From positions 1 to 64,000 of IMG/VR virus record IMGVR_UViG_3300003873_000004: a stretch of 64,000 nt of DNA; one strand, 5' to 3'. Every line of letters begins with the position of its first letter. Positions within the stretch are counted from its first letter, which is position 1. The translations under genes and the position numbers were made by a program. Under the pieces are notes generated by a model. The model did not search any database and was not told the DNA's origin. It saw only the letters and a list, made by a program, of their open reading frames with translations. Source of the DNA: a virus. Positions 32,062-62,681 of the stretch are shown here, piece after piece.

Positions 32062-32836
32062 CAGAAAAACCGATCAATAGAAGTATAACTATTGTGTTCT
32101 ATCGAAGTAGAATTGATGCGTGAATCAGCAATATCAAAATATTTTTCGTCTTGTTCAATTCCAATAAATTTTCGATTGAGTTTTTTTGCTGCGACTCCGG
32201 TCGAACCGCTGCCCATCGTAAAGTCTAGAACCGTTTCTTCTTCGTTTGTGTATGTTTTTATTAGATATTTCAACAATTCTACTGGTTTCTGAGTAGGTGT
32301 AATTTACTACCACAATGAATAGAAAATTTTAGAATCGACAAGGGATAATATTCACCAGAAAGATTGCCTTTCTGTTTGAAATTCCCTTGTTTACCGTTGT
32401 TGCCTACAATAGAATTCGTATGTGTTCCGCCAGTTTTGGGACCTTTGTAAGATTTTCCTGTTCTCATTATTGGTTTATACATTGGTTGTTTGTTGTAGAA
32501 AGTCAATATGTTTTCATATGACCCCATTGGCCGCTTTTTTGCGTATAGCGGGTTACTTCCTTTGCCTTTATCCCATATCCAATCATACTTGTAGTTTTTG
32601 ATGTTACTCATTCTCAATGCGCTACTAAAAGGTTCGCAGCCAAACAAAACAATAGCTCCATTAGATTTGGTTATTCTATTTAATTGTTTCCACATTGGTT
32701 CAAAAGGAATTACATAATCCCATTTGCATGCTGTCGTTCCATACGGTGGATCGGTTAAAATAAAGTCGATAGATTTATCAGGCAAATCTTTCATTAGTTC
32801 TAGGCAGTCGCCTTTTAATAGTTTGGTGTCTGTCAT
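32061..32836 (-). pseudogene. DNA adenine methyltransferase (beta-class order), frameshifted
   Basis: The N-terminal frame (32279-32836, 185 residues) contains DFILTDPPYGTTACKWDY (catalytic DPPY) and the target region, then ends with a false tail. The next frame (from about 32300 down to 32061) continues exactly as expected: PTQKPVELLKYLIKTY, then VLDFTMGSGSTGVAAKKL (the FxGxG SAM motif) and FIGIEQDEKYF. The junction reads CACCTACTCAG; one more C (CACCCTACTCAG) would restore HPTQKP. The DPPY-before-FxGxG order is that of beta-class N6-adenine enzymes. Inactive as read, unless this is a sequencing error. Confidence 0.75.
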
Positions 32837-33792: not shown

Positions 33793-35010
33793 TCAGATAA
33801 AATATACAAATTTATCTTTTCGGACAACAGGAACTATAGATGCCTGTTCAGAAGACAACCAATAGAAACCAGTTCTATTTTGTTGTTTTCTACGAAGATC
33901 GGGCGCGATCGCCCGCAGTGGTGAAGCAATGTTTTTGGCTGCGTTCAAATCCGCGTCATCTAAATGACCGCATTTGTCGCACTCAAAAACTTTTCCTTTT
34001 CGGTTTGCTTTCTTCGTCCAACCGCATCCAGAACATCTTTGGCTTGTGTAAGTTGGGTTGATGTGCGTCACTAGAACGTCTAGTTCTTCACATCGAGCCT
34101 CGATCTTGTCAAAAATCTCTGGATATGTAAAATGAGAAAGGAATCTGGAACTTGTTTTTCCTTTCCTCATGTCTTTTATGTTTTCTATCTTTAGCTCTTT
34201 ACAACTGGACAGGTTTAGCCGGTTGATCGCCCAATTGATGTAGTTTGTTCTATGTTCTTGAGTCCTTCTAAATGCCTTCGAACCCTTTCTCTTTCTGGAT
34301 AAGGTTTTCATGATTGAATCGAGATCGTGACCGTGGCGGTCGATCTTCGAAACTTGATTGTCTGAACAAGAAATGAGAGTCTTTGCTCCAATGTCGATGC
34401 CTAGAGTTTCTGTTCCTACATTTTGTCTTGGTTCTATTTCGAACAACATAGTAATTTCCTTTTCGTTCAGTCTAATAGATTTTTTTAGCTCACCTCTTGT
34501 CAGCAAATTATTAAAATGTCTGTGCCGTTTGAAAGGCAATTCAATTTTTATTTTACTTCCTATTGATCGTAGAGTTATGTATCCGTCAAACGAAGTTTTG
34601 TTTTCTTGATCAATATGAACAAACCTAGAATCTAATTCCAAGTTTATCTTATCTAAAATTGGCTTAGATGGTGTATTGCGATCATAAACTTTTCTTAACT
34701 TGTTTGCTTTTTCGATGTTGCCTGATATTTCTAACTTATTAATCATCCATAAACGTTTCTTTTGCTTGGCTTTTGTTCCTTTAATGATGCCGATGGCCTG
34801 TTTTGTAGCACACTGTATCATTCTGGCAGAAAGCCAAGAAGTTATATTGTCAGTGAAGTCTCTCGTTGCGAACTTAGGGAGGGTTTCGTACCCCCAATAG
34901 AAGTCAATTGTTTTCTTCATAACATTTCTATATTCACAAACGATTGAAGACACCGTTTGTTTCTTCGATTTGTTTGTGAATTTAAGAGAAACTTTAGAAG
35001 ATTTAATCAT
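33793..35010 (-). CDS. tnpB: TnpB RNA-guided nuclease of IS607-type element
   Basis: A 405-residue TnpB (OrfB) with an intact RuvC-like site: Asp206 in TLGIDIGAKTLIS, Glu276 in CKELKIENIKDM, and Asp354 in DDADLNAAKNI. The zinc finger has CSGCGW (326-329) and CDKCGH (344-347). The N-terminal WED/REC-like region includes a helical HTH segment. TnpB cuts DNA guided by an omega RNA made from the element's right end and favours retention of the element. It overlaps tnpA by 8 nt. All key residues are present, so activity is plausible. Confidence 0.9.
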   Translation of the reverse strand: MIKSSKVSLKFTNKSKKQTVSSIVCEYRNVMKKTIDFYWGYETLPKFATRDFTDNITSWLSARMIQCATKQAIGIIKGTKAKQKKRLWMINKLEISGNIEKANKLRKVYDRNTPSKPILDKINLELDSRFVHIDQENKTSFDGYITLRSIGSKIKIELPFKRHRHFNNLLTRGELKKSIRLNEKEITMLFEIEPRQNVGTETLGIDIGAKTLISCSDNQVSKIDRHGHDLDSIMKTLSRKRKGSKAFRRTQEHRTNYINWAINRLNLSSCKELKIENIKDMRKGKTSSRFLSHFTYPEIFDKIEARCEELDVLVTHINPTYTSQRCSGCGWTKKANRKGKVFECDKCGHLDDADLNAAKNIASPLRAIAPDLRRKQQNRTGFYWLSSEQASIVPVVRKDKFVYFI

Positions 35011-35572
35011 TGTTCAATTCGTCAACGATTTTCGCCGTCTTTCTTTTTGATCTGCGTTTGCCATAGATTCTCGCACAGAACGAAGTTATTATAGAAACTA
35101 AATCTTCTACGATTTCTTTTTCCTCTTGTGTTCTGTTCACAACAACGATTTCACCGGCAAATAAAGTTTCTATATAATTAAATCCAAATCGTGTCAGTCT
35201 ATCCTTATGCTCGACAACAATTCTCCCTATTGTTGGGTCAGACAAAAGAGAAATCAGTTTTGGTCTATTGTCATTTAACCCAGAAGCACATTCTTTCGTC
35301 ACGATATTGACTACCCAGCCATTAGAACAACAAAAATCTTCTAGACGTTTTGCTTGGCTGTCCAAATTATTGCGATTTTGAGAAGAACTAACTCGCGCGT
35401 AAATAGCAGTACGAACATCTGTCTCGACTTCGCTGTCAACTTCAATTAGAATTGTACCCGACGGCAATTGTACATAATTATCAGGAAAATCCCCACGTTT
35501 CAACAATTGATAAGCTCCAGTGTATGTGTAGCCGTTTTCTTTTGCCCATTTTGACAGTTTAATTCGTTTCAT
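35003..35572 (-). CDS. tnpA: IS607-family serine recombinase TnpA
   Basis: 189 residues in the IS607 layout: an N-terminal MerR-like DNA-binding helix-turn-helix (MKRIKLSKWAKENGYTYTGA), followed by a serine recombinase catalytic domain with the nucleophile in AIYARVSSSQNRNNLDSQ (Ser62 region). It also has IGRIVVEHKDRLTRFGF and a basic C-terminus (KRRSKRKTAKIV). It catalyses excision and insertion of the element. Its start codon follows a late-type box, so it should be expressed late in infection. Confidence 0.9.
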   Translation of the reverse strand: MKRIKLSKWAKENGYTYTGAYQLLKRGDFPDNYVQLPSGTILIEVDSEVETDVRTAIYARVSSSQNRNNLDSQAKRLEDFCCSNGWVVNIVTKECASGLNDNRPKLISLLSDPTIGRIVVEHKDRLTRFGFNYIETLFAGEIVVVNRTQEEKEIVEDLVSIITSFCARIYGKRRSKRKTAKIVDELNND

Positions 35573-35577
35573 ATATC

Positions 35578-35584
35578 TATTTAG
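35578..35584 (-). promoter_or_regulatory. Late-type box CTAAATA upstream of tnpA (minus strand)
   Basis: CTAAATA then 5 nt to the ATG at 35572, the same spacing as phage late genes. Confidence 0.6.
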
Positions 35585-35676
35585 TATTATATGTTTTTAC
35601 ACATTTATGGCGATTGTACATTATACTTAATCGAAAAGGCATAAAAATCTTTTTATCGAAAATTGAAAGAAATCTC

Positions 35677-45884: not shown

Positions 45885-45998
45885 ATGGAAACAAAAAAAG
45901 TAGTTTCAATCAAAAAAGTAGGTCGCGGGCATGTCCGCAATTTGTGTGTAAACAAAAATCACACGTTCGTCACATCTAACGGAATAGTTACCCACAAT
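45885..45998 (+). mobile_element. Split intein C-half
   Basis: 38 residues with its own ATG, ending THN followed by the nucleophile Cys of the C-extein. The length is typical of natural split-intein C fragments. Confidence 0.85.
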
Positions 45999-46553
45999 TG
46001 CGACCTAGCAGATGCTAGAATAATGTGCCTTCAATCAGTTCTCGAAGGCAAGCCAATTTTCCTGCCAAAACTTGGTAAGAAAATTCATCCGGCTAAGGGA
46101 TTCAATGTGTTTGCTACTGCTAATACCAAAGGTAAAGGTTCAGATAGTGGGCAATTCATGGGAACAAATGTCATGAATGAAGCATTTCTTGATCGGTTTT
46201 CAATCACCATTGAACAGAGTTATCCAGCCGCGGCGATTGAGAAGAAGATCGTCAGTAAATATGCCACTGACTATTTCGGCCATGTTCTCAGTTTGCGAGA
46301 TCAGACGGTTTGTGATAACTTGGTAACTTGGGCACAGATCACCCGCAAGAGTTTCCTGGAAGGTTCAATTGACGAACTGATTTCGACTCGTCGACTGATT
46401 GCTACGGTTGAGTCGTATGCCATTTTCGGTTCAAATATCGAAAAGAGTATTGAATATGCTACGAACAGGTTTGATGACGATACTAAGGAAAGCTTCGTGG
46501 AACTGTACAAGCAAATCGATTCTGGTATGAAAACATTTGAGGAGGACGAATAA
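45885..46553 (+). CDS. cobS: Split intein C-half fused to C-terminal part of CobS-type ATPase
   Basis: 222 residues. Residues 1-38 are the intein C-half (METKKVVSIKKVGRG, VRNLCVNKNHTFVTSNG) ending in block G IVTHN, with Asn38 followed by Cys+1. Residues 39-222 are the C-extein: CDLADARIMCLQSVLEGKPI, FNVFATANTKGKG (sensor 1 area), LDRFSITIEQSYP and the lid helices. Joining at ILDE/CDLADAR rebuilds the normal MoxR/CobS motif LDExDLAD. The predicted spliced protein has 387 residues. Confidence 0.88.
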   Translation: METKKVVSIKKVGRGHVRNLCVNKNHTFVTSNGIVTHNCDLADARIMCLQSVLEGKPIFLPKLGKKIHPAKGFNVFATANTKGKGSDSGQFMGTNVMNEAFLDRFSITIEQSYPAAAIEKKIVSKYATDYFGHVLSLRDQTVCDNLVTWAQITRKSFLEGSIDELISTRRLIATVESYAIFGSNIEKSIEYATNRFDDDTKESFVELYKQIDSGMKTFEEDE

Positions 46554-50312: not shown

Positions 50313-50566
50313 AAATCTATGTTGTTCGAGTGAGTGGAAAATATCTGAAAGGTGGTGGATGTCGATATGAATTGGTAGACGACATTTCGAACGCTCGAAC
50401 CTATTCGGCTAAAAGATATGCTAAAAATTCAATCAGACAAACTATGGAATATGAATTGGATGAAAACAAGATCAAACAGTTCGAGAACGCAGAAATATTG
50501 GAATGCGATATGGTCATTGGTGGATTTCAAGTTGACCGATTAATATTTCTGATTGACATGACCTAA
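50309..50566 (+). CDS. Small unknown protein
   Basis: 85 residues, coupled to dut by an ATGA overlap. Alpha/beta composition, basic middle (ARTYSAKRYAKNSIRQTMEY). No family is recognised. The next promoter lies inside its 3' end. Confidence 0.58.
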   Translation: MKIYVVRVSGKYLKGGGCRYELVDDISNARTYSAKRYAKNSIRQTMEYELDENKIKQFENAEILECDMVIGGFQVDRLIFLIDMT

Positions 50567-50581
50567 ATATTAGTGTAGAGT
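50553..50581 (+). promoter_or_regulatory. Sigma70-like promoter of queD
   Basis: TTGACA-17 bp-TAGAGT, 34 nt before the queD ATG. Confidence 0.65.
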
Positions 50582-50615: not shown

Positions 50616-51158
50616 ATGTTTGAAATTTCAAAGAATTTTCAAATTTGTTATGCACATAGAGTATTTTCTCAGAATGTAAATGAGAAGTATTCTGGGTCTT
50701 CTGATTGTCCATGTCAAAAAATTCATGGGCATGGAGGAGTCATTACGGTAAGTTTATCTGCTCCTAGTTTAGACACTAGAGGATTTGTTATTGACTATAA
50801 GGAATTATCATTCGTTCGAGATTTTCTTGATAATAACATCGACCACAGGTTTATTATATCAGATTTGGACCCAGGGTTTTTGAGATTGGTCGGCTATACC
50901 CCAGCACAGTTTAAAGCTATGTCATCTAAAATTTCGCTTCTTGATGAAGTAGGAATGGGATATCGAACATTTGATGATTCTGATGTTCATTTAGATTCAT
51001 TTGTGATGATAGAAAACATTAATCCAACCAGTGAGAATTTATCGAAGTGGGTTTACGAAGGCATAGAAAAGGTCATAAATTTGTCCGAATTCGATTGCAC
51101 TGTGAATTATGTCGATTGGTCAGAAACAGCAAAAACACACGCAAGGTACTCTAAATGA
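50616..51158 (+). CDS. queD: QueD, 6-carboxy-tetrahydropterin synthase
   Basis: A 180-residue PTPS-family enzyme that turns dihydroneopterin triphosphate into 6-carboxytetrahydropterin, the second step to 7-deazaguanines. The zinc ligands His14 (YAHRVF), His37 and His39 (KIHGHGG) and the Cys pair 31/33 (DCPCQKIHGHG) are visible, as is VIDYKELSFVRDFLDNNIDH; the family Glu is in NPTSENLSKWVYE. It is coupled to queE by an ATGA-type overlap and belongs to the DNA-modification block ending with dpdA. Confidence 0.9.
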   Translation: MFEISKNFQICYAHRVFSQNVNEKYSGSSDCPCQKIHGHGGVITVSLSAPSLDTRGFVIDYKELSFVRDFLDNNIDHRFIISDLDPGFLRLVGYTPAQFKAMSSKISLLDEVGMGYRTFDDSDVHLDSFVMIENINPTSENLSKWVYEGIEKVINLSEFDCTVNYVDWSETAKTHARYSK

Positions 51159-52054
51159 GCAAAGAACAAGAGATTTTAGTGTTCGAAACATTCTATTCGT
51201 GTCAGGGGGAATCGCTACGAGTAGGAGTACCGTCGATTTTCATTAGAGTGTTTGGCTGTTCTGCCTCTTGTCCTGGATTTGGTCAGCCAAAAGGGAAACT
51301 AATTCCAATCGAAGAAATGCCGCACAATACTTTCGATGCCTCTAAGATCACTAGAGTTGATCAATTACCTGTTTCGAATATTGGATGTGATTCGGCGGCA
51401 GCATGGTCGAAGAAATATCGACACTTGGCTAAGAAATATACAGTAGATTCACTGATAGAACATATCGAATCACTTGTTCCTAAATATGCGTACGAACGTC
51501 CAGATATTGTTATTACTGGTGGGGAACCGCTTCTACCAAAATTTCAGAAGTTCTGGGTAGAGTTTCTGAAAAAAACTCCAAATTTTTCTGAGATTACGTT
51601 TGAAACCAACGGCACGCAAAGGCTATCTACAGATTTGTTCGAAGCTATTACCAACGGAAATATCAGATTCACGTTTTCGGTTTCACCAAAGCTGGAAATT
51701 AGTGGAGAACCACAGAGCAAGATGTTGAAACCAGAAGCAGTCACATCATACAGGATGCTATATGCTTTTGATTGGTCTGAAACTGGACATAATGTTTATC
51801 TAAAATTCGTAATTCGAGATAACGATGATGTGGAAGAAGTTTATCATTTTATCAACGAATACCAGAAAGATTACAAGGAAGAATTGTCACTCAAAACATG
51901 TGAGAAGCCTACCGTTTATCTCATGCCAGAAGGCGCCACAATAGAAGGGCTAAAGTTGACAGAAACACAGGTGGCCAATATCGCGCTCGAAAATGGTTTC
52001 CGATATAGCCCAAGACTTCACTGCTCTTTGTTTGGCAATTCATGGGGCACGTAG
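51155..52054 (+). CDS. queE: QueE, 7-carboxy-7-deazaguanine synthase (phage-type radical SAM)
   Basis: 299 residues. YSCQGESLRVGVPSIFIRVF is the typical QueE start. The cluster motif is unusual: Cys35 and Cys39 (FGCSASCPGFGQP) lack the third Cys of CX3CX2C; Cys78 in NIGCDSAAAWSKKY is the likely third ligand, a layout I associate with phage QueE proteins. IVITGGEPLLPKF is the GGEP SAM motif. It makes CDG from 6-carboxytetrahydropterin. No queC follows in this window. Confidence 0.85.
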   Translation: MSKEQEILVFETFYSCQGESLRVGVPSIFIRVFGCSASCPGFGQPKGKLIPIEEMPHNTFDASKITRVDQLPVSNIGCDSAAAWSKKYRHLAKKYTVDSLIEHIESLVPKYAYERPDIVITGGEPLLPKFQKFWVEFLKKTPNFSEITFETNGTQRLSTDLFEAITNGNIRFTFSVSPKLEISGEPQSKMLKPEAVTSYRMLYAFDWSETGHNVYLKFVIRDNDDVEEVYHFINEYQKDYKEELSLKTCEKPTVYLMPEGATIEGLKLTETQVANIALENGFRYSPRLHCSLFGNSWGT

Positions 52055-52084
52055 AGACATTTTACTCTTGATTTGATACCAGTA

Positions 52085-52180
52085 TATCAAAAAGAAATTC
52101 AAATCGTTTCTAGACACACTCTAGGGGCTAGAAACACATTAAATAAAGTTCTTGACAAGTACAGATTAAGAGTGTAGCAT
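52085..52180 (+). repeat. 96-bp promoter repeat, copy 2 (before folE)
   Basis: The closest copy to 56038-56133, including the arms TTTCTAG and CTAGAAA and the end TTGACAAGTACAG; similarity continues about 20 bp further upstream (ACTCTTGATTTGATA). Confidence 0.9.
52152..52180 (+). promoter_or_regulatory. Sigma70-like promoter of folE
   Basis: TTGACA-17 bp-TAGCAT, 27 nt before the ATG at 52208, with a GAGAGG ribosome site. Confidence 0.78.
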
Positions 52181-52207
52181 CAATAGATCAAATTCGAGAG
52201 GTAATCC

Positions 52208-52834
52208 ATGCTCAAAGCCAATTCAAATATAGTAAAATATATGGAAGAAAACGGAATCACAAAACAAGCAATTCGGGATAATGTTGAGAAAGCATATCAG
52301 GGGGTCTTAGATGCCCTGCTGATCGACACTGAACATGATCACAATACGCGGGAAACCGCGCATCGAGTAGCTAAAATGATGGTGAATGAAATATACAAGG
52401 GCAGATATGAAGAAATGCCGAAAGTAACTTCTTTTCCAAACGACAAACATTATGATGGGTTGTATTCAGTTGGCCCTATCGAAGTTCGTGCCACCTGCGC
52501 TCACCATTCGATGCCGATTGTTGGCAATGCTTGGGTTGCTGTACTTCCGGGCAAGAGAGTTATTGGATTATCAAAGTTTTCTCGAATAATTGATTGGCTT
52601 TCTTCCCGCCCGACAATTCAAGAAGAACTTTGTGAACAGGTAGCAGACACACTGGTAGAAGTGACCGAAGCAAAGGGGATTTATGTTGTTATCAAAGCAT
52701 CTCATGGATGCTGTACCCAACGTGGTATCAAAGCATCGAATTCAAATATGACAACCGCAGTGATTCGTGGAGAATTTCGGGGCAACTCTGATTTGAAGCG
52801 CGAAGCTCTAGAACTGTTTGACGAGTTCAAATAA
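52208..52834 (+). CDS. folE: GTP cyclohydrolase I (FolE)
   Basis: A 208-residue type I GTP cyclohydrolase, the first step of deazapurine synthesis (GTP to dihydroneopterin triphosphate). Zinc ligands are in RATCAHHSMPIVG (Cys97, His100) and ASHGCCTQRGI (Cys168/169). RVIGLSKFSRIIDWLSSRPT and IQEELCEQVADTLVE are family signatures. It feeds queD and queE located just upstream. Confidence 0.93.
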   Translation: MLKANSNIVKYMEENGITKQAIRDNVEKAYQGVLDALLIDTEHDHNTRETAHRVAKMMVNEIYKGRYEEMPKVTSFPNDKHYDGLYSVGPIEVRATCAHHSMPIVGNAWVAVLPGKRVIGLSKFSRIIDWLSSRPTIQEELCEQVADTLVEVTEAKGIYVVIKASHGCCTQRGIKASNSNMTTAVIRGEFRGNSDLKREALELFDEFK

Positions 52835-52838
52835 TAGC

Positions 52839-52867
52839 TTGACAAGAGCATCGAAATAGTTTAGAAT
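52839..52867 (+). promoter_or_regulatory. Sigma70-like promoter of the PTPS-like/glycosyltransferase/dpdA operon
   Basis: TTGACA-17 bp-TAGAAT; three coupled genes follow without another promoter until 55463. Confidence 0.75.
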
Positions 52868-52886
52868 CACCAATAAGGAGATTAAA

Positions 52887-53237
52887 ATGAGTTTATATAC
52901 TGAAATTTTTGTGACATTTTCGTTCGAAGGGGAACATTGCTATCCAGACGCCCCAGACGAAGTGTCATATTTGAGGAATGTTCATCGTCATCTGTTCAAT
53001 GTTCGAGTTGACATTGATGTGGAGCATGACGAACGCGAGATTGAGTTTCACATGTTCAAACATGAACTACAATCTAGGTTTCGATCATATGAAGATTGCT
53101 CTAACAAATCTTGCGAGACGATGGCGCGTGAACTGGCTGGATACTTGCTTGCCAATTATCACGGTCGAGATTTCTCTGTGACTGTAGACGAAGATGGCGA
53201 GAACGGCGCCATCGTAACTCATATTAAGGACTTTTGA
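52887..53237 (+). CDS. Divergent PTPS-like small protein
   Basis: 116 residues. FSFEGEHCYPDAP followed by YLRNVHRHLFNVRVDIDVEH places three His (EH, HRH) in the arrangement of the zinc site of PTPS/QueD proteins, but the catalytic Cys-HGH pattern is absent. It is the first gene of the operon carrying the glycosyltransferase and dpdA; its stop overlaps the next ATG (TGATG). It may be a structural or regulatory QueD relative, or a protein of another fold with similar residues. Confidence 0.5.
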   Translation: MSLYTEIFVTFSFEGEHCYPDAPDEVSYLRNVHRHLFNVRVDIDVEHDEREIEFHMFKHELQSRFRSYEDCSNKSCETMARELAGYLLANYHGRDFSVTVDEDGENGAIVTHIKDF

Positions 53238-54286
53238 TGAGAAATTTATTTATCTTACCAATCGAACCAATCGAGAACCGTTACCCTGCAGACTGGTATC
53301 GATATGTTCCAAACCAGTTTCGAGATTATATTGCTGAAAATGGTCTAGACTTCGTGGTTCATCAGATCGATGGAATCTTTTCTGCTTCTAATTCGGGGAA
53401 TACAAATTTTCTAAACTTTGTCGATTCTCATGGATATAAAACATCTCAGATGTTTGCTGTATCTGAGCTGATTCAGAAGGGCGAGGTTCACGATGGTGAT
53501 GTGTTCCTTCTAACGGACGGCTGGAATCCTTGCGTCAACAATCTGAAAACGATGCTTGAAATGTCTAATATCGACGCTCGAATTGTTGGTGTGTTTCATG
53601 CGGGCGGCTGGGACTCGGCAGATATTATTCCAAATACAGTCAAAAATAAAGATTGGTTGTATGAATCAGAACTTGGAATGTTCTCCGCATACGATGACAT
53701 TATTGTGGCGACAAAGTTTCATGCCGATCTGATTATAGAATATAGTAACATTGAAGTTTACCCTATCACCGTTTGCCCTTTCCCGATGGAATATATGAAG
53801 GACACATTGAAGAAATATGTCATCCCAGATTCAAAAAAACGAGATATTGTGGTGTTTCCTCATAGAAATTCACCAGAGAAGCAGCCAGATTTGGCAGACG
53901 AAATCGGCAAGCGTTTGAAACTGCTAGGAATAACGTACATCAATTGCCGCGATTACAATTTCACTAAAGATGAATATTATCAACTACTGGCACAATCAAA
54001 GGTGTGTTTTTCTGTATCGTTACAAGAAACTCTTGGCATTGCACAATTTGAAGCCGCTCTGCTCGGAGCCATGCCATTAGTGCCGAATCGTTTATCCTAC
54101 ACAGAAATGTACCATGATGCGTTTAAGTATGTCAACGATAACGATATTGTTCAGCGAATAGTCGATATGTTGGAATTTCCTAAGCACAAACAGGATGCTT
54201 ATATCCATAATGTTGATTATGTTGGAAACAATTTTTTTGACGGCAACAATGGATTTTATCAAACGGTCTTGGGAGAACAACGATAA
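53237..54286 (+). CDS. GT-B-type glycosyltransferase
   Basis: 349 residues from the ATG at 53237 (AAGGA upstream, TGATG overlap). The N-terminal half includes DVFLLTDGWNPCVNNLKTML and GVFHAGGWDSADI. The C-terminal Rossmann half has DIVVFPHRNSPEKQPDLADE and YYQLLAQSKVCFSVSLQETL followed by GIAQFEAALLGAMPLVPN, the donor-binding E-x7-E pattern (Glu in LQETLG and QFEAALLG) of GT4-like retaining enzymes. Its stop abuts the dpdA ATG. The operon context suggests it may act on a modified base; the substrate is unknown. Confidence 0.8.
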   Translation: MRNLFILPIEPIENRYPADWYRYVPNQFRDYIAENGLDFVVHQIDGIFSASNSGNTNFLNFVDSHGYKTSQMFAVSELIQKGEVHDGDVFLLTDGWNPCVNNLKTMLEMSNIDARIVGVFHAGGWDSADIIPNTVKNKDWLYESELGMFSAYDDIIVATKFHADLIIEYSNIEVYPITVCPFPMEYMKDTLKKYVIPDSKKRDIVVFPHRNSPEKQPDLADEIGKRLKLLGITYINCRDYNFTKDEYYQLLAQSKVCFSVSLQETLGIAQFEAALLGAMPLVPNRLSYTEMYHDAFKYVNDNDIVQRIVDMLEFPKHKQDAYIHNVDYVGNNFFDGNNGFYQTVLGEQR

Positions 54287-55459
54287 ATGAAAAGAAAATC
54301 AATATATTTTGCCTCTCTGAGTTGTGCAACTTCGAGTTATCTAAAGAAAACAGATGAAGAATTTCGAGCGATGGATCCTGCGCTATGGGAAGTTTCCCCG
54401 AGATTTGTCAACAAGAATGATACGTTTTATCACAAAGACGCTCTATTTTCTGCCTCACTTCACCAGAAACTTTATCCAGACTTGCGTAAACAACTTCATT
54501 TAGATGACGATGTTAATATTTTTGTCGATAGTGGTGGATACTCTTTGGTTGCTGGTACGATTACAGAGAAGACTTGGAATAACGAAACTGCGCTAGCTTA
54601 TTCAGAACGCAATGGTAATATCTTTCCTATCTTAGATAGACCAGTGAGTAACGCGGTAACACCAGCAGATATCCAAGCATGTCTCGACAAGACCATGATC
54701 GCTGCGAAATATTATGAAGAACATAGAACGAAAGATTCTTGTGACATTCTCAATGTGTTGTCTGCTCGGACTTCACATGACATGGAACATTGGTATAATT
54801 CAATGAAGGAATTTTCTTTCGAAGGATGGGCACATGGTGGTCATAGTGGTAATCTGAAAGTTGCCCTCAAAGGTATATTGTTTCTTCTAGCGAAAGGGGA
54901 ATACGACAAAGATCGAATTAAATTTCATCATGTTTTTGGAATATCTGGAATGGCCGCGATTGTTTACTTTGCTTTGGTTCAGCAATTGCTCAATAAAATG
55001 GGCGTAGATATCCAGCTAACCTTCGACAGTTCTTATTTCCAGAGACAGATGGGATTTGGGGCAGTGTTTATCAACCCAAAATGGACAGGCATGGGAATCT
55101 TACCATATTCTAATAAGAACGATTATTCGCATATGGATGACGTGCCAATGGTCTGTGACTGTGCCATCTGTAAGACTGTGCCATCTGTCAAGAAGTTCCT
55201 AGAGTCATCAATGACATTTTACATGAAAGGTTTGACTCATAATTTGTTGATGATGGATCGAATCAAACATCAAGCAGAATCAATTTTCGATACAGAAATA
55301 TTAGAACAGCAGAAAACTGTATTCGGAGCAGAAATATACAATAATACACAACTTCTTCGTAAAGCGTTCGCAAACCCAAAAGCTGGCATGGAATATATTG
55401 ATCGAATGTCGTTGAAAGACTTGGGCAACTCCCCTGTCAGTTTAGAAAATTTGTTTTAG
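54287..55459 (+). CDS. dpdA: DpdA-type deazaguanine DNA transglycosylase (TGT family)
   Basis: 390 residues of the tRNA-guanine transglycosylase superfamily. Seen: the base-site Asp in IFVDSGGYSLVAG (Asp81), FPILDRPVS, GWAHGGHSGN, HHVFGISGM, the nucleophile Asp in LTFDSSYFQRQMGFG (Asp247), and zinc Cys in VCDCAICKT (290, 292, 295). DpdA enzymes exchange guanine in DNA for a 7-deazaguanine. Together with queD, queE and folE it indicates modified genomic DNA. Directly coupled to the glycosyltransferase. Confidence 0.85.
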   Translation: MKRKSIYFASLSCATSSYLKKTDEEFRAMDPALWEVSPRFVNKNDTFYHKDALFSASLHQKLYPDLRKQLHLDDDVNIFVDSGGYSLVAGTITEKTWNNETALAYSERNGNIFPILDRPVSNAVTPADIQACLDKTMIAAKYYEEHRTKDSCDILNVLSARTSHDMEHWYNSMKEFSFEGWAHGGHSGNLKVALKGILFLLAKGEYDKDRIKFHHVFGISGMAAIVYFALVQQLLNKMGVDIQLTFDSSYFQRQMGFGAVFINPKWTGMGILPYSNKNDYSHMDDVPMVCDCAICKTVPSVKKFLESSMTFYMKGLTHNLLMMDRIKHQAESIFDTEILEQQKTVFGAEIYNNTQLLRKAFANPKAGMEYIDRMSLKDLGNSPVSLENLF

Positions 55460-58092: not shown

Positions 58093-58688
58093 GAATTATT
58101 GGACTTGCCGGGAAGGCGAGAAGCGGCAAAGACACTGTCGCCGGTATGATTCAAGACACATTAGAGCTAGATTTCCAGGAACTTGCCGTAAAATATGCTC
58201 TAGCTGGCCCATTGAAAGAAGCAGCAGCAAAAATGTTTGGAATTCATCTAGACGATTTCTACAACGATAATAAAGAAACACCAAACGATTTCTGGGGCAT
58301 CTCCCCTAGAGAAATTGCTCAGAAATTCGGGACGGAATGTGCTCGCGAAGTATTTCGAGAGGATTTCTGGTTGAAGCGTATGGAAATGGAAATGACGAGC
58401 ACAAATTGCGACGTGTTCGTTATCACAGATATTCGATTTCGAAATGAAGCTGATTGGGTACGATCACATGGCGGGGAAATTTGGCATGTTGTCCGACCTT
58501 CTATTGGTGATGGTGTTGTTCGAGATCACGCATCAGAAGCGGGAATTGAATTTGTTGAAGGTGACGTTTCTATTTCAAATGACGGTTCATTGCCGCAGCT
58601 AGAAAAACGTGTCCTGACCTTTTTAGATAATATCTTGACAAAAACTAAGATTTCTGATAGTCTCAGCGTAGAGAAGGAGAACAAATGA
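58089..58688 (+). CDS. 1: Deoxynucleoside monophosphate kinase gp1
   Basis: A 199-residue homologue of T4 gp1 (241), which phosphorylates dGMP, dTMP and modified dCMP. Seen: P-loop IGLAGKARSGKDTVAGMI (about 3-20), the LAGPLKEAAAKMFGI segment, GTECAREVFREDFWLKRM, and the ITDIRFRNEADWV motif. It overlaps the polymerase start by 4 nt. In a phage with deazaguanine DNA, note that the modified base is made after replication, so this kinase need not accept it. Confidence 0.85.
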   Translation: MRIIGLAGKARSGKDTVAGMIQDTLELDFQELAVKYALAGPLKEAAAKMFGIHLDDFYNDNKETPNDFWGISPREIAQKFGTECAREVFREDFWLKRMEMEMTSTNCDVFVITDIRFRNEADWVRSHGGEIWHVVRPSIGDGVVRDHASEAGIEFVEGDVSISNDGSLPQLEKRVLTFLDNILTKTKISDSLSVEKENK

Positions 58689-60217
58689 CAAAATTTTACA
58701 CATCAGTTGAACCCTATGGCAATGCTTTCCGTGTCAGACAGGTAGATGATGGAATCAGATCGAACAGAATCGTTCGTGGGTTTGTTCCAGACTTATTTCG
58801 ACCAACAAACGACGAATCAGAAAAGCAAGCAATCGGAATGGACGGAAAGACTATGCTTGCCAAATTGCCTTGTTCTAACGTCAGAGAGGCCAAAGATTTG
58901 ATTCAACAATACTCTGGGACGTCTTTTGATGTTTATGGCTCACCAAACATGATTTCTCAGTTCATTTCGAAAACATATCCAGGAACTATTGATTTCGACC
59001 CGTCTAACATTCGAATCTTCTACCTAGACATGGAATGTTACACTAGGAATCCAGATGGTTCGAGTGCTGGATTTCCTCACTCAAAGGATGCCAAGTTTCC
59101 GATCAATCTAATTCAGGTCATTGACAGTCAAGATGTCGAGGGTGATGTTGTTAGAATTTGGGGACTACAGCCATTCGATGATTCAGAAAGTGACATTATC
59201 TACACAGTATGTCGAGACGAGAGCGACTTACTATGTCGATTTGTACAATTTTGGCAGAGTAACTGCCCAGACGTCATGACTGGCTGGAACGTAAAAGGAT
59301 TCGATGTTCCTTACATTGTCAATCGTATTATGTCAGTGTTAGGCGAAGATGAAGCGAAGAAATTGTCTCCATGGGGCGAAGTTCGTCAGCGCAATTATAC
59401 AAACGATTTTCAGCAAGAAGAACAGACGTATATTATTTCTGGGGTTGCTGTACTCGATTATCTTGAACTCTATAAGAAATACACATACCATAATCTCGAA
59501 AATTATAAATTGGACAGTGTCGCACATTACGAATTGAAAAGTAGGAAGGTAGACTACTCAGATTTAGGCTCTCTGTTGCGTTTGTGTGACGAAGACCATG
59601 ATAAATTTGTGGAATATGGAGCAACCGACTCCCGGCTGATTTTACAGTTAGAACAGAAGATGAAGTTGATCAATTTGGTATTCGAGCTTGCTTACCATAA
59701 CAAGACGAATTATGCTGATACTTTTTCTCCGGTTAGATCATGGGAAGCAATCATTTTCAATACGATGCTTGATCGAAATATGTATTCTACGGTCGAAAAT
59801 ACAGACAACACAGAACAATTTAGAATAGAAGGCGGTTTTGTAAAACAACCAACAACTGGTAAAATGTTAGAGTGGGTAATATCAGAAGATTTTGCTAGCC
59901 TATATCCGTCGCTTATTATGCAGTATAACATTTCGCCTGAGACATATCTAGGGCAGGATTATCTTGACGTACCACAGTTTGAACGTGAAGACTTGATAGC
60001 GGGCAGTGTTGATTTGTCGAAGTTGACAGGAACAAATATCACAATGACACCAAACAGATCATTTTTCAATACAGAAAACGAAGGAATATTACCCTATTTG
60101 ATGGGGCTGATGTATGCGGAACGAAAATCAATCAAGCGAGAAATGTTATCTGTGGAACGGGAACGAGAGATCGTTCGAGATAAAATAAGAAGCTTATCGG
60201 ATGAGACTGCCGGATAG
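58685..60217 (+). CDS. 43A: DNA polymerase gp43, N-terminal part (exonuclease and motif A)
   Basis: 510 residues of the family B replicative polymerase. Exo I FYLDMECYTRNP (about 115), Exo II MTGWNVKGFDVPYIVNRI (about 197-214), Exo III VEYGATDSRLILQLEQK (about 309) and polymerase motif A SEDFASLYPSLIMQYNI (about 400) are intact. It ends in the fingers helices (LMYAERKSIKREMLSVERE) with a short tail DETAG. Motifs B and C are in the separate gene at 61345. The two products must associate, as described for split gp43 of some T4-like phages. Confidence 0.92.
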   Translation: MTKFYTSVEPYGNAFRVRQVDDGIRSNRIVRGFVPDLFRPTNDESEKQAIGMDGKTMLAKLPCSNVREAKDLIQQYSGTSFDVYGSPNMISQFISKTYPGTIDFDPSNIRIFYLDMECYTRNPDGSSAGFPHSKDAKFPINLIQVIDSQDVEGDVVRIWGLQPFDDSESDIIYTVCRDESDLLCRFVQFWQSNCPDVMTGWNVKGFDVPYIVNRIMSVLGEDEAKKLSPWGEVRQRNYTNDFQQEEQTYIISGVAVLDYLELYKKYTYHNLENYKLDSVAHYELKSRKVDYSDLGSLLRLCDEDHDKFVEYGATDSRLILQLEQKMKLINLVFELAYHNKTNYADTFSPVRSWEAIIFNTMLDRNMYSTVENTDNTEQFRIEGGFVKQPTTGKMLEWVISEDFASLYPSLIMQYNISPETYLGQDYLDVPQFEREDLIAGSVDLSKLTGTNITMTPNRSFFNTENEGILPYLMGLMYAERKSIKREMLSVEREREIVRDKIRSLSDETAG

Positions 60218-61195
60218 TCCTCTATGTGTTTTCTGCCGTTTTGCAGTTAAGTCACAAATACCTTGAGAACTAATATTCATATGAGAATACTTGTGTTTTA
60301 TTTCATACGTAGTGCCAGTGAATTTATTTCCTGAGTCTATTTCGTACACCGTGTGAATTTTCTTATATTTATCTATTTGTTGATCGTATTTTCTTGGTAG
60401 ACTATCATCGTTTATCTTCATCCAGCCATCAGATTGACCATTAGGTTTTCTAAGAATATAGTATATGTTTACCTCCGGGTATTTGTCTGAGAATTCATGG
60501 TTTGTGCCATCGAAGCGTTCCTCGGTGTCTAAGTTATATAATGATATTTTCTTTGCTCCGTGGAACAATCGTGAAGCCTCAGTGTTAGATTTTGTACTGT
60601 AAGTTGGTATGATGTTGTCGTGTGTGAGCATCCAGTCGTTTGATTTTGCTCCTTTATGTGATAGCATATAATTCATGGAAACGTGTTCCCGTTTTCTGAA
60701 CTCGTATACTGTACCGTTGAAGAATTTTTTCGTCTTAAGATTGTATGCTTGTATTACCTTTTTGTTGTTTGGTGATTCTTTCGCCCTTTCTATAATCCCT
60801 TCTGTCATTAGTCTTTTTGCCTCTACGCGCTGGCGCAAGGAACGATAGTTTCGGTTTATCTTTTGTGAACAAATAAGCCCATAGGATAGATACATCTTTG
60901 TTTTACTTTTGCCCGTTGTTATTCTACATAGAAGGTGGTGAGCGAACAAATGCTCTCTGATGGATAGCTGCACAATATTATCTTCAGACTCGCCGGTTCC
61001 GGGAATAACTGCAAATTTAGATTGTCTAGGCGAGTCTAAGAAGAAACTTGCTGGAATGATGTGGTGTAATTCCAGACGAGGAGCCTTGCTCGGAAACGCT
61101 TGTCTAGTCGTTATAAAATCGTCATAAATTTTAAGGTATTTGTTTTCTTTGAACGCTGCGAGATTATACTCTCGATCATAAATAGATTTAGTCAT
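60194..61195 (-). CDS. HNH homing endonuclease with modular DNA-binding repeats
   Basis: 333 residues on the minus strand, lying between the two polymerase genes and overlapping the end of 43A by 24 nt. The HNH site is LELHHIIPASFFLD with EDNIVQLSIREHLFAHHLLC. It is followed by three NUMOD-like repeats: YNLKTKKFFNGTVYEF, YNLDTEERFDGTNHEF and YEIDSGNKFTGTTYEI, each with a downstream S.GWM or similar segment. It probably recognises the uninterrupted polymerase gene and caused the split. It has its own late promoter and leader hairpin. Confidence 0.82.
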   Translation of the reverse strand: MTKSIYDREYNLAAFKENKYLKIYDDFITTRQAFPSKAPRLELHHIIPASFFLDSPRQSKFAVIPGTGESEDNIVQLSIREHLFAHHLLCRITTGKSKTKMYLSYGLICSQKINRNYRSLRQRVEAKRLMTEGIIERAKESPNNKKVIQAYNLKTKKFFNGTVYEFRKREHVSMNYMLSHKGAKSNDWMLTHDNIIPTYSTKSNTEASRLFHGAKKISLYNLDTEERFDGTNHEFSDKYPEVNIYYILRKPNGQSDGWMKINDDSLPRKYDQQIDKYKKIHTVYEIDSGNKFTGTTYEIKHKYSHMNISSQGICDLTAKRQKTHRGLSGSLIR

Positions 61196-61223
61196 TTCAA
61201 TACTCCATTATTGTTTTGATTAG

Positions 61224-61256
61224 AAGGCTGTTTGTGTTACTAGCACAGGCGGCCTT
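61224..61256 (-). promoter_or_regulatory. 5'-leader hairpin of the HNH gene (minus strand)
   Basis: AAGGC and GCCTT arms with an inner TGTG/CACA stem around CTAGTAA. Between the late box and the ribosome site, as at 26149-26180. Confidence 0.55.
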
Positions 61257-61271
61257 CGTTGTTTCTGATAG

Positions 61272-61279
61272 TATTTATA
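61272..61279 (-). promoter_or_regulatory. Late promoter TATAAATA of the HNH gene (minus strand)
   Basis: An exact T4-type TATAAATA on the minus strand, about 77 nt before the ATG at 61195; a GGAG ribosome site precedes the ATG. Confidence 0.68.
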
Positions 61280-61296
61280 AAAAGTTAAATTTTCGC

Positions 61297-61325
61297 TTGA
61301 CAACTAATGTAAATAAATGTAGACT
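61297..61325 (+). promoter_or_regulatory. Sigma70-like promoter of gene 43B
   Basis: TTGACA-17 bp-TAGACT, 19 nt before the ATG at 61345, with a GGAGG ribosome site. It gives the detached polymerase half its own expression. Confidence 0.78.
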
Positions 61326-61344
61326 ACACAAACATGGAGGAAAA

Positions 61345-62681
61345 ATGACATTAGAAAAACTAAAACAGCAGGAGCAGGATTTGACATCGAAGATTTCAAG
61401 TCTTAATAATGCTCAAATGGCTAGAAAAATCCTTTAATTTTGGAGGCTTTGGTCGGGAACGACCATTGTACATCGTGTGAATTGCTGGAAAGCTAAGTCG
61501 AAAGATATGCCAATCAGCAGCCAAGCCCACATAGGGAAGGTTCAGAGACTATCCGTAAGGAGTAGGAATCAAGTGGTTCCGAAGCGCACGACAACCAGAA
61601 CGGTTGATGATATAGTCCGATCTTGCGCGAAAGCGTAAGCTGCGAAAGCGAGGCAATAGTAACGTCATTGTCTGAACATGTGCTAAATTCCTGTTTTGGT
61701 GCCCTAGCATCAAAATATTATAGATATAACAATTCATATATTGCTGAGTCCATAACTACGGCGGGACAAGTTGGTATCCAGTGGACAATGAGAAAAACAA
61801 ATGAATATTTGAACCTTATTCTAAAAACTGACGATGTGGATTATACCGTCGGGGCAGACACAGATTCCGAATATGTTGAATTAAATCAGCTAGTTATGAG
61901 ATATTTCAAAGATAAGCCAAACGCGACAGATCACGACAAAGTTGAATTTCTTGATCTGTTCTGTAAGACCCAGCTCGACCCCGCGATTCAAAAGTCTTGT
62001 ATTGAGATGAAAGATTATATGAACGCAAGATTAAACAAGCTAGATATGGAAAGAGAAGCCATATCTTCACGTGGTTTTTTCACCGCGAAAAAACGGTACG
62101 CTCTACTGGTACATGACATGGAAGGCGTCCGCTACGCCAAACCAAAACTAAAAATCATGGGATTAGAAACTCAGAAATCTTCTACACCAAAACCATGTAG
62201 AGATTTGCTAAAAGATATGATCATGGTAATGTTGACCAAAGGGGAAACAGAAACCCAAGAGTTCATCGAGAATGCCCATGATGATTTTATTGCTCTTGAC
62301 ATTGGTGAATATGCCGTCCCGCGTGGTATCAATGGTCTAGAAAAATATTGTATCGAAAATGGCAAAGCTATCAATGGTACACCAGCGCACGCTAAAGCAG
62401 CTTTAGTTTACAATATGATGATCAAACGAAAGAATTTACCGCTTGACCCAATCAAATCTGGGGACAAGTTGAAATATGTTCCACTGAAAGAACCAAATCC
62501 TTGTGGATTTCCAATTGTTGGATTCCCGTCACATCTAGGATTGCCAAAAGAATTTGGATTAGATGAATATGTGGACGTAGAAACTGTGTATTATAAAGCA
62601 TTTTTGAAGCCGGCAGAAGCCATGCTTGGTGCTGTCGGATGGAATGTAGAGAAAACATCTAGTCTGGAGGACTTTTTCTGA
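61345..62681 (+). CDS. 43B: DNA polymerase gp43, C-terminal part, interrupted by a group I intron
   Basis: Exon 1 is 61345-61434 (30 codons, ending NNAQMARKIL) and exon 2 is 61683-62681 (332 codons, beginning LNSCFGALASKYYRY). Joined, they restore polymerase motif B, ARKILLNSCFGAL (K-x3-NSxYG, here with Phe in place of the usual Tyr). Motif C VGADTDSEYVEL lies about residues 84-95, and the thumb follows, ending in a clamp-binding-like tail SLEDFF. The spliced product is 362 residues; with 43A the total is 872, close to T4 gp43 (898). Confidence 0.88.
61435..61682 (+). mobile_element. Group I intron in polymerase motif B (ORF-less)
   Basis: 248 nt. The conserved cores are present: P/Q (AATTGCTGGAAAGCT; AATCAGCAGCCAAG), R (GTTCAGAGACTATC) and S (GATATAGTCCGA); GACTAT and ATAGTC form P7. 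Exon 1 ends CCTT, whose last U pairs with G of GAGG just downstream (P1), and the intron ends in G before CTAAATTCC. This boundary choice restores the protein frame exactly. It carries no endonuclease; the HNH gene next door may supply mobility. Confidence 0.9.

Follow-up and report, generated by a model that had tools for sequence, protein, structure and literature searches.

A phage gene block that may place a sugar on 7-deazaguanine in DNA

We analysed the initial 64 kb (64,000 nucleotides, hereafter the window) of IMG/VR virus record IMGVR_UViG_3300003873_000004, an incomplete record of 95,268 bases, and describe a block of six same-strand genes at positions 50616-55459. The block encodes QueD, QueE, FolE, a small QueD-fold protein (here PT), a glycosyltransferase (GT) and a divergent protein resembling DpdA DNA guanine transglycosylases. 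Sequence comparison, structure prediction and a survey of GT relatives in three collections suggest a role for the block in DNA hypermodification, in which the GT puts a sugar on a deazaguanine in DNA, a reading to which we assign a probability of about 0.6.

Results

The virus is T4-like, with T4-type replication genes; by inspection, genes for a sliding clamp, a clamp loader and DNA polymerase B adjoin the block. An original prediction had placed queD, queE and folE together with a DpdA-type gene, a GT gene and a PTPS-like gene in this interval, and all six open reading frames (ORFs) were recovered there, with family matches for QueD, QueE and FolE. The first gene, queD (50616-51158, + strand; 180 amino acids, aa), encodes a 6-carboxytetrahydropterin synthase-like protein (PF01242, 6e-21; phrog_2389, 5e-25) that by inspection keeps the CQKIHGH, DH and SE motifs of a canonical QueD. 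Its stop overlaps the start of queE (ATGA; 51155-52054, +; 299 aa), the product of which resembles radical SAM 7-carboxy-7-deazaguanine (CDG) synthases (phrog_2076, 2e-45) and scores under the cut-offs of the NCBIfam QueE models. FolE (52208-52834, +; 208 aa) matches GTP cyclohydrolase I (PF01227, 3e-45; phrog_2197, 3e-51). The PTPS-like protein ahead of the GT proved to be a member of phrog_17812 (3e-25), encoded at 52887-53237 (+; 116 aa). The GT gene (53237-54286, +; 349-350 aa; phrog_4356, 7e-7) overlaps the PT stop (TGATG), its start being better placed at ATG 53237 than at TTG 53234, and its stop abuts the start of the dpdA-like gene (54287-55459, +; 390 aa), so that the predicted direct coupling of the two genes holds with a corrected GT start. 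The window thus encodes FolE, QueD, QueE and a DpdA-like protein together, as do 7-deazaguanine DNA modification systems.

The assignment of the GT as a GT-B-type enzyme was borne out by structure prediction. An AlphaFold2 model built from a 59-sequence alignment had a predicted local distance difference test score (pLDDT) of 92.3, and its best fold match in the PDB was BshA (E 7e-13), followed by LmbT, sucrose-phosphate synthase and MshA, which are retaining GT-B enzymes. The EX7E motif (E265-E273) and the Arg/Lys pair of the diphosphate site (R211/K216) are invariant in the same alignment. We are therefore confident that the modelled GT represents a retaining GT-B/GT4 fold with an intact EX7E motif, although fold and sequence reveal neither its donor nor its acceptor. 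Fold comparison was required for this assignment: the window GT falls below the Pfam cut-off, PF00534 is reached at E<0.01 in 10 of 59 relatives, and PDB sequence searches with the GT, DpdA-like and PT proteins returned nothing meaningful (nanobodies, bacterioferritin).

GT relatives were surveyed in isolated phages (50,697 records), IMG/VR and cellular genomes. Among the isolated phages, 20 records carry the GT and 27 carry PT, with 16 common to both, an overlap that served as an unseeded background measure; a control scan with a neighbouring nucleotidyltransferase returned one locus only and was unusable as background. The GT-bearing phages fall into six lineages (ACP17, PA5oct, X1, BUCT-ZZ01, Phosso and PhiXhv-12), all of which encode DpdA and a canonical QueD-type PTPS, even where these lie far apart. 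In ACP17, PA5oct, X1 and BUCT-ZZ01 the GT adjoins or lies within one gene of DpdA and PT, and in Phosso the PT, GT and FolE genes stand together with DpdA at 323-325 kb. PhiXhv-12 has a divergent GT and no PT, and carries PIG-L (GlcNAc deacetylase-type) and GFO/IDH/MocA oxidoreductase genes close to the GT. We considered this phage as a surface-glycan counter-example and ruled that out: the 'aminotransferase' of the annotation next to the GT proved to be a fusion of a glutamine amidotransferase with QueC (PF06508, 2e-49), and a DpdA-like match (E 1e-8) and QueD occur elsewhere in the genome.

In IMG/VR, relatives of the GT are encoded in at least 598 stretches, and the analysis went on with the 80 best matches. 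Because these lie closest to the window GT and include many related loci, their counts are not independent. Each of the 80 loci has two or more pathway genes (PT in 77, DpdA in 71, FolE in 61, QueE in 50); DpdA and PT are both present in 59/59 loci with at least 4.5 kb upstream of the GT, and all 407 pathway genes in the GT-bearing loci lie on the same strand as the GT. Likewise, 17/17 GT matches in cellular genomes adjoin DpdA, PT, FolE or QueE; some of these lie on short contigs assembled from metagenomes, possibly of viral origin. Shimia, Sulfitobacter, Thalassobius, Azospirillum and others have the GT and DpdA only, without the synthesis genes. A VUT_1/YhhQ-like transporter precedes the GT in the bacterial GT-DpdA loci examined. 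Inspection showed tyrosine-recombinase-like ORFs near these pairs, which suggests that they belong to integrative elements; a plasmid homologue of the Shimia GT was not found. All eight bacterial carriers checked have their own tRNA guanine transglycosylase (TGT). The GT also partners two different sets of DpdA proteins, in varied gene orders. It is thus well supported by these comparisons that the GT is not a chance neighbour and works in a deazaguanine DNA pathway.

Several other proteins recur near the GT. A protein of about 530-580 aa without a Pfam match, possibly a partner, adjoins DpdA in the bacterial GT-DpdA elements (L185:10570-12321; L188:10616-12196). A second GT-like protein with a similar N-terminus lies near the GT and DpdA in BUCT-ZZ01 (L005:5010-6353) and Shimia (L185:12287-13543, - strand) and could extend the first sugar. 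A family of about 180 aa without Pfam or PHROG match ('f4', e.g. L127:5426-5944) stands upstream of PT in 88/129 GT loci and adjoins DpdA in ACP17; it was not found in the window.

For the window DpdA-like protein, none of Pfam, PHROG and NCBIfam gave a family match, and a single-protein IMG/VR scan with this divergent query returned no relatives. Its two predicted catalytic residues, D81 and D247, correspond to the two catalytic Asp residues of the DpdA/TGT superfamily, of which the first belongs to the DSGG motif. Both are conserved without exception in an alignment that adds the ACP17, PA5oct, X1, BUCT-ZZ01 and Vibrio phage 2.275.O relatives, and again in a second alignment of 56 sequences. 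The predicted CxCxxC motif of a putative zinc site is present (C290-x-C-x-x-C295, with a later His by inspection), the window protein being its sole carrier among 121 DpdA-like frames. In profile comparisons the window family matched a DpdA2-like set (probability 96.6, E 6e-10) that includes the ACP17, X1 and BUCT-ZZ01 proteins and itself matched bacterial TGT (probability 95.4). Members of this set from the three phages are 27-30% identical to DpdA2 of phage nt-1, whose genome contains dPreQ0 in its DNA (PMC6884629).

PT was modelled with a pLDDT of 87.8 and resembles Escherichia coli QueD (TM score up to 0.75). The zinc-type residues H17/H33/H35, together with E77/E102, are invariant in the PT alignment, as expected of a T-fold with a zinc-binding His triad. 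By contrast, the catalytic residues of QueD are missing: the position of the catalytic Cys is an invariant Leu (L29, 45 sequences), and the Asp-His pair (DH motif) is absent by alignment. PT, the family of which is annotated as of unknown function, is a conserved core component that lacks the QueD catalytic residues, a feature overlooked in the original prediction. It also occurs in loci without the GT, alongside QueD, QueE and FolE. A frequent PT neighbour in 31 such loci is a protein with a DNSGFE motif (e.g. L009:10056-11345), in which LDNSGFELYKQG and PDYPGE motifs recall TGT. We suspect that this protein represents a further DpdA subfamily, although a profile comparison, with a profile from only three sequences, gave no support for the kinship.

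The absence of queC from the block had been taken to point to CDG or to use of host QueC, and neither QueC nor QueF was matched anywhere in the incomplete 95 kb record. QueC at cut-off is absent in 5/6 full GT-bearing isolated phages, and in 20 longer IMG/VR sibling contigs it exceeds the cut-off in two only, both weakly. Of 12 PT-bearing isolated lineages, 10 have no QueC match, X1 has a sub-threshold match and D479 a partial one over the cut-off (6e-9). Conversely, QueC is strong in nt-1, 2.275.O and PhiXhv-12, none of which has a PT match. PT therefore occurs almost only in phages without QueC. As no more than one of the PT-bearing phages departs from this pattern, we favour the CDG branch over reliance on host QueC, and PT is likely to work on CDG itself or in its use.

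Genes that could supply a sugar are frequent near the GT. Across 129 GT loci, the neighbours include a nucleotide-sugar epimerase (52), phosphomannomutase (20), GFO/IDH/MocA oxidoreductase (18), alcohol dehydrogenase (18) and DegT aminotransferase (15). At least one of these five families is present in 76/127 GT-positive PT loci compared to 1/31 GT-negative PT loci (p 2e-9), and in 57/93 compared to 1/29 after dereplication at 90% (p 1e-8). We treat this enrichment as supporting evidence only. A phosphoribosyltransferase is also common in GT loci (75/129); we suggest for it a role in salvage of the guanine released by DpdA.

The window has 18 copies (9991-62937) of a promoter-like motif, TTGACA-N17-TAGNNT, compared to 0.26 expected; 17 of the 18 are on the + strand within 36-63 kb, and the motif looks like an early or middle phage promoter. 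Copies precede queD (TTGACA-N17-TAGAGT, 50553-50581, +), folE (TTGACA-N17-TAGCAT, 52152-52180, +) and PT (TTGACA-N17-TAGAAT, 11 of 12 positions, 52839-52867, +), and another lies downstream of dpdA. Because of this arrangement, the block is probably transcribed as three units, queD-queE, folE and PT-GT-dpdA.

Elsewhere in the window, a TnpB-like gene (Cas12f1-like TNB domain, 3e-18) overlaps a serine-resolvase gene (3e-15) at 33793-35596 (- strand), a pair that appears to be an IS607-type element inside the phage. DNA polymerase B is encoded in two ORFs (58661-62681) separated by a third on the opposite strand (60194-61207; 337 aa); the polymerase of PA5oct is likewise interrupted, there by a homing-endonuclease gene. 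The start of an AAA-ATPase-like ORF (45885-46553) resembles an intein C-terminus (VTSNGIVTHNC), and an N6/N4 DNA methylase-like gene just under the Pfam cut-off (1e-5) lies at 32279-32836 (- strand), possibly a second DNA modification.

Discussion

In the pathway that we propose, FolE, QueD and QueE would convert GTP to CDG, and PT, standing where QueC would be expected, would bind or process CDG or aid its delivery. The divergent DpdA would exchange guanine in phage DNA for the deazaguanine, and the GT4-type GT would then move a sugar from a nucleotide sugar to the deazaguanine, most likely after its insertion. The resulting bulky, glycosylated bases would hide phage DNA from host nucleases. 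The original prediction that the GT may add a sugar to the inserted base has gained from the three collections as regards the link between the GT and the deazaguanine pathway; a sugar on the DNA base is the simplest reading of that link, and we infer it together with the nature of the sugar, the acceptor atom, the order of steps, the reaction of PT, the transglycosylation and the protection.

Several points weigh against a glycosylated deazaguanine in DNA, and the main gap is chemical. The only obvious acceptor of CDG at C7 is its carboxylate. DpdL, which Cui and colleagues reportedly proposed in 2023 to be a CDG decarboxylase, would act on CDG in phages that lack QueC, as we propose for PT, the two being likened by described role only; if PT removed the carboxylate in this way, no obvious hydroxyl or amine would be left at C7. 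The acceptor may be the carboxylate of CDG, some product of PT derived from it or a different position, and it may differ between systems, since the bacterial GT-DpdA pairs lack PT. The DpdA activity of the window protein is assigned through remote similarity, and the direct profile match of its family to TGT is weak (probability 14.8). The sugar-gene enrichment is not significant after single-linkage dereplication at 70% (5/12 compared to 0/6 in 18 groups, p 0.11). In addition, a scan of the window's record with sugar-gene hidden Markov models built here found no nucleotide-sugar genes, so that supply from the host would be needed.

Other explanations assign the GT a different acceptor. One unlikely reading is that the sugar never enters DNA because the GT acts on a soluble intermediate, either a pterin or the free deazaguanine. 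FolE and two QueD-fold proteins adjoin the GT, which places pterin-like metabolites at hand, and cyanobacterial pterin glucosyltransferases act on pterins; however, the alphaproteobacterial GT occurs with DpdA and no FolE, QueE or PT nearby, and a pterin GT should not track DpdA. Somewhat less probable still is that the deazaguanine is inserted plain while the GT decorates another part of the DNA or a different base. Retaining GT4 enzymes are diverse in their acceptors, and the sequence does not identify this one, but the association with DpdA is strict, and the conserved families scanned from GT loci included none recognised as an enzyme for a different modified base.

Glycosylated deazaguanine is known from tRNA as queuosine glycosides, and the DpdA2-like set matches TGT; the transglycosylase could therefore act on tRNA, with the GT modifying a tRNA deazaguanine as eukaryotic QTMAN and QTGAL do. 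We consider this very unlikely, because the bacterial carriers possess a separate TGT and the closest studied relative, nt-1 DpdA2, accompanies dPreQ0 in phage DNA (PMC6884629). Finally, phage GTs often modify host glycans, and PHROG labels the GT relatives only as moron glycosyltransferases, as expected if the GT were a surface-glycan or seroconversion enzyme beside dpdA by chance. All three collections show the association, however, and it persists where the gene order is rearranged; the survey leaves this explanation highly improbable.

Several known systems resemble the block in part. Like the DpdA systems of phages 9g, CAjan and nt-1, it has FolE, QueD, QueE and DpdA; unlike them, it lacks QueC and adds PT and the GT, and its DpdA falls into a distinct set that has diverged further. 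Of the proteins studied so far, DpdA2 of nt-1 comes closest to the DpdA set paired with the GT in ACP17, X1 and BUCT-ZZ01. The alpha- and beta-glucosyltransferases of T4 are likewise phage GTs that sugar-coat a hypermodified base, but the acceptor here would be a deazaguanine rather than hydroxymethylcytosine and the GT is GT4-like; the T4 enzymes were not among the top GT fold matches shown. QTMAN and QTGAL also place a sugar on a 7-deazaguanine nucleoside, but in eukaryotic tRNA, and they act on the cyclopentenediol of queuosine, a group not expected in this block. BshA and MshA, the GT4 enzymes of bacillithiol and mycothiol synthesis, are the closest solved folds to the GT, but share 12-13% identity with it and differ in context and presumably in acceptor; the GT of PhiXhv-12 stands beside its PIG-L deacetylase in the manner of the BshA/BshB pairing. 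A survey of jumbo phages noted the deazaguanine system of PA5oct, in a passage that does not mention the GT (PMC7824862). A literature search of partial coverage found no description of glycosylated deazaguanine in DNA, only work on queuosine in tRNA, and we regard the novelty as provisional.

Whether the idea extends to the whole group is evenly balanced: a widespread class of marine and other phages, together with elements of Alphaproteobacteria, may carry glycosylated 7-deazaguanine in their DNA. In the phages the route would bypass QueC and rely on a repurposed QueD-fold protein to act on CDG, and many members would have dedicated genes for nucleotide-sugar supply. If the proposed reading is true, one base would unite two major ways in which phages camouflage their DNA, replacement of guanine by deazaguanine and glycosylation, and the GT family would provide a gene signature for it across the IMG/VR stretches counted above. 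Culturable members (PA5oct-like phages on PAO1, ACP17, Phosso, X1 and BUCT-ZZ01) make the idea testable. We put PT (phrog_17812) forward as a core deazaguanine protein, and for those GTs of these phages that bear the annotation 'hypothetical' we predict an action on DNA.

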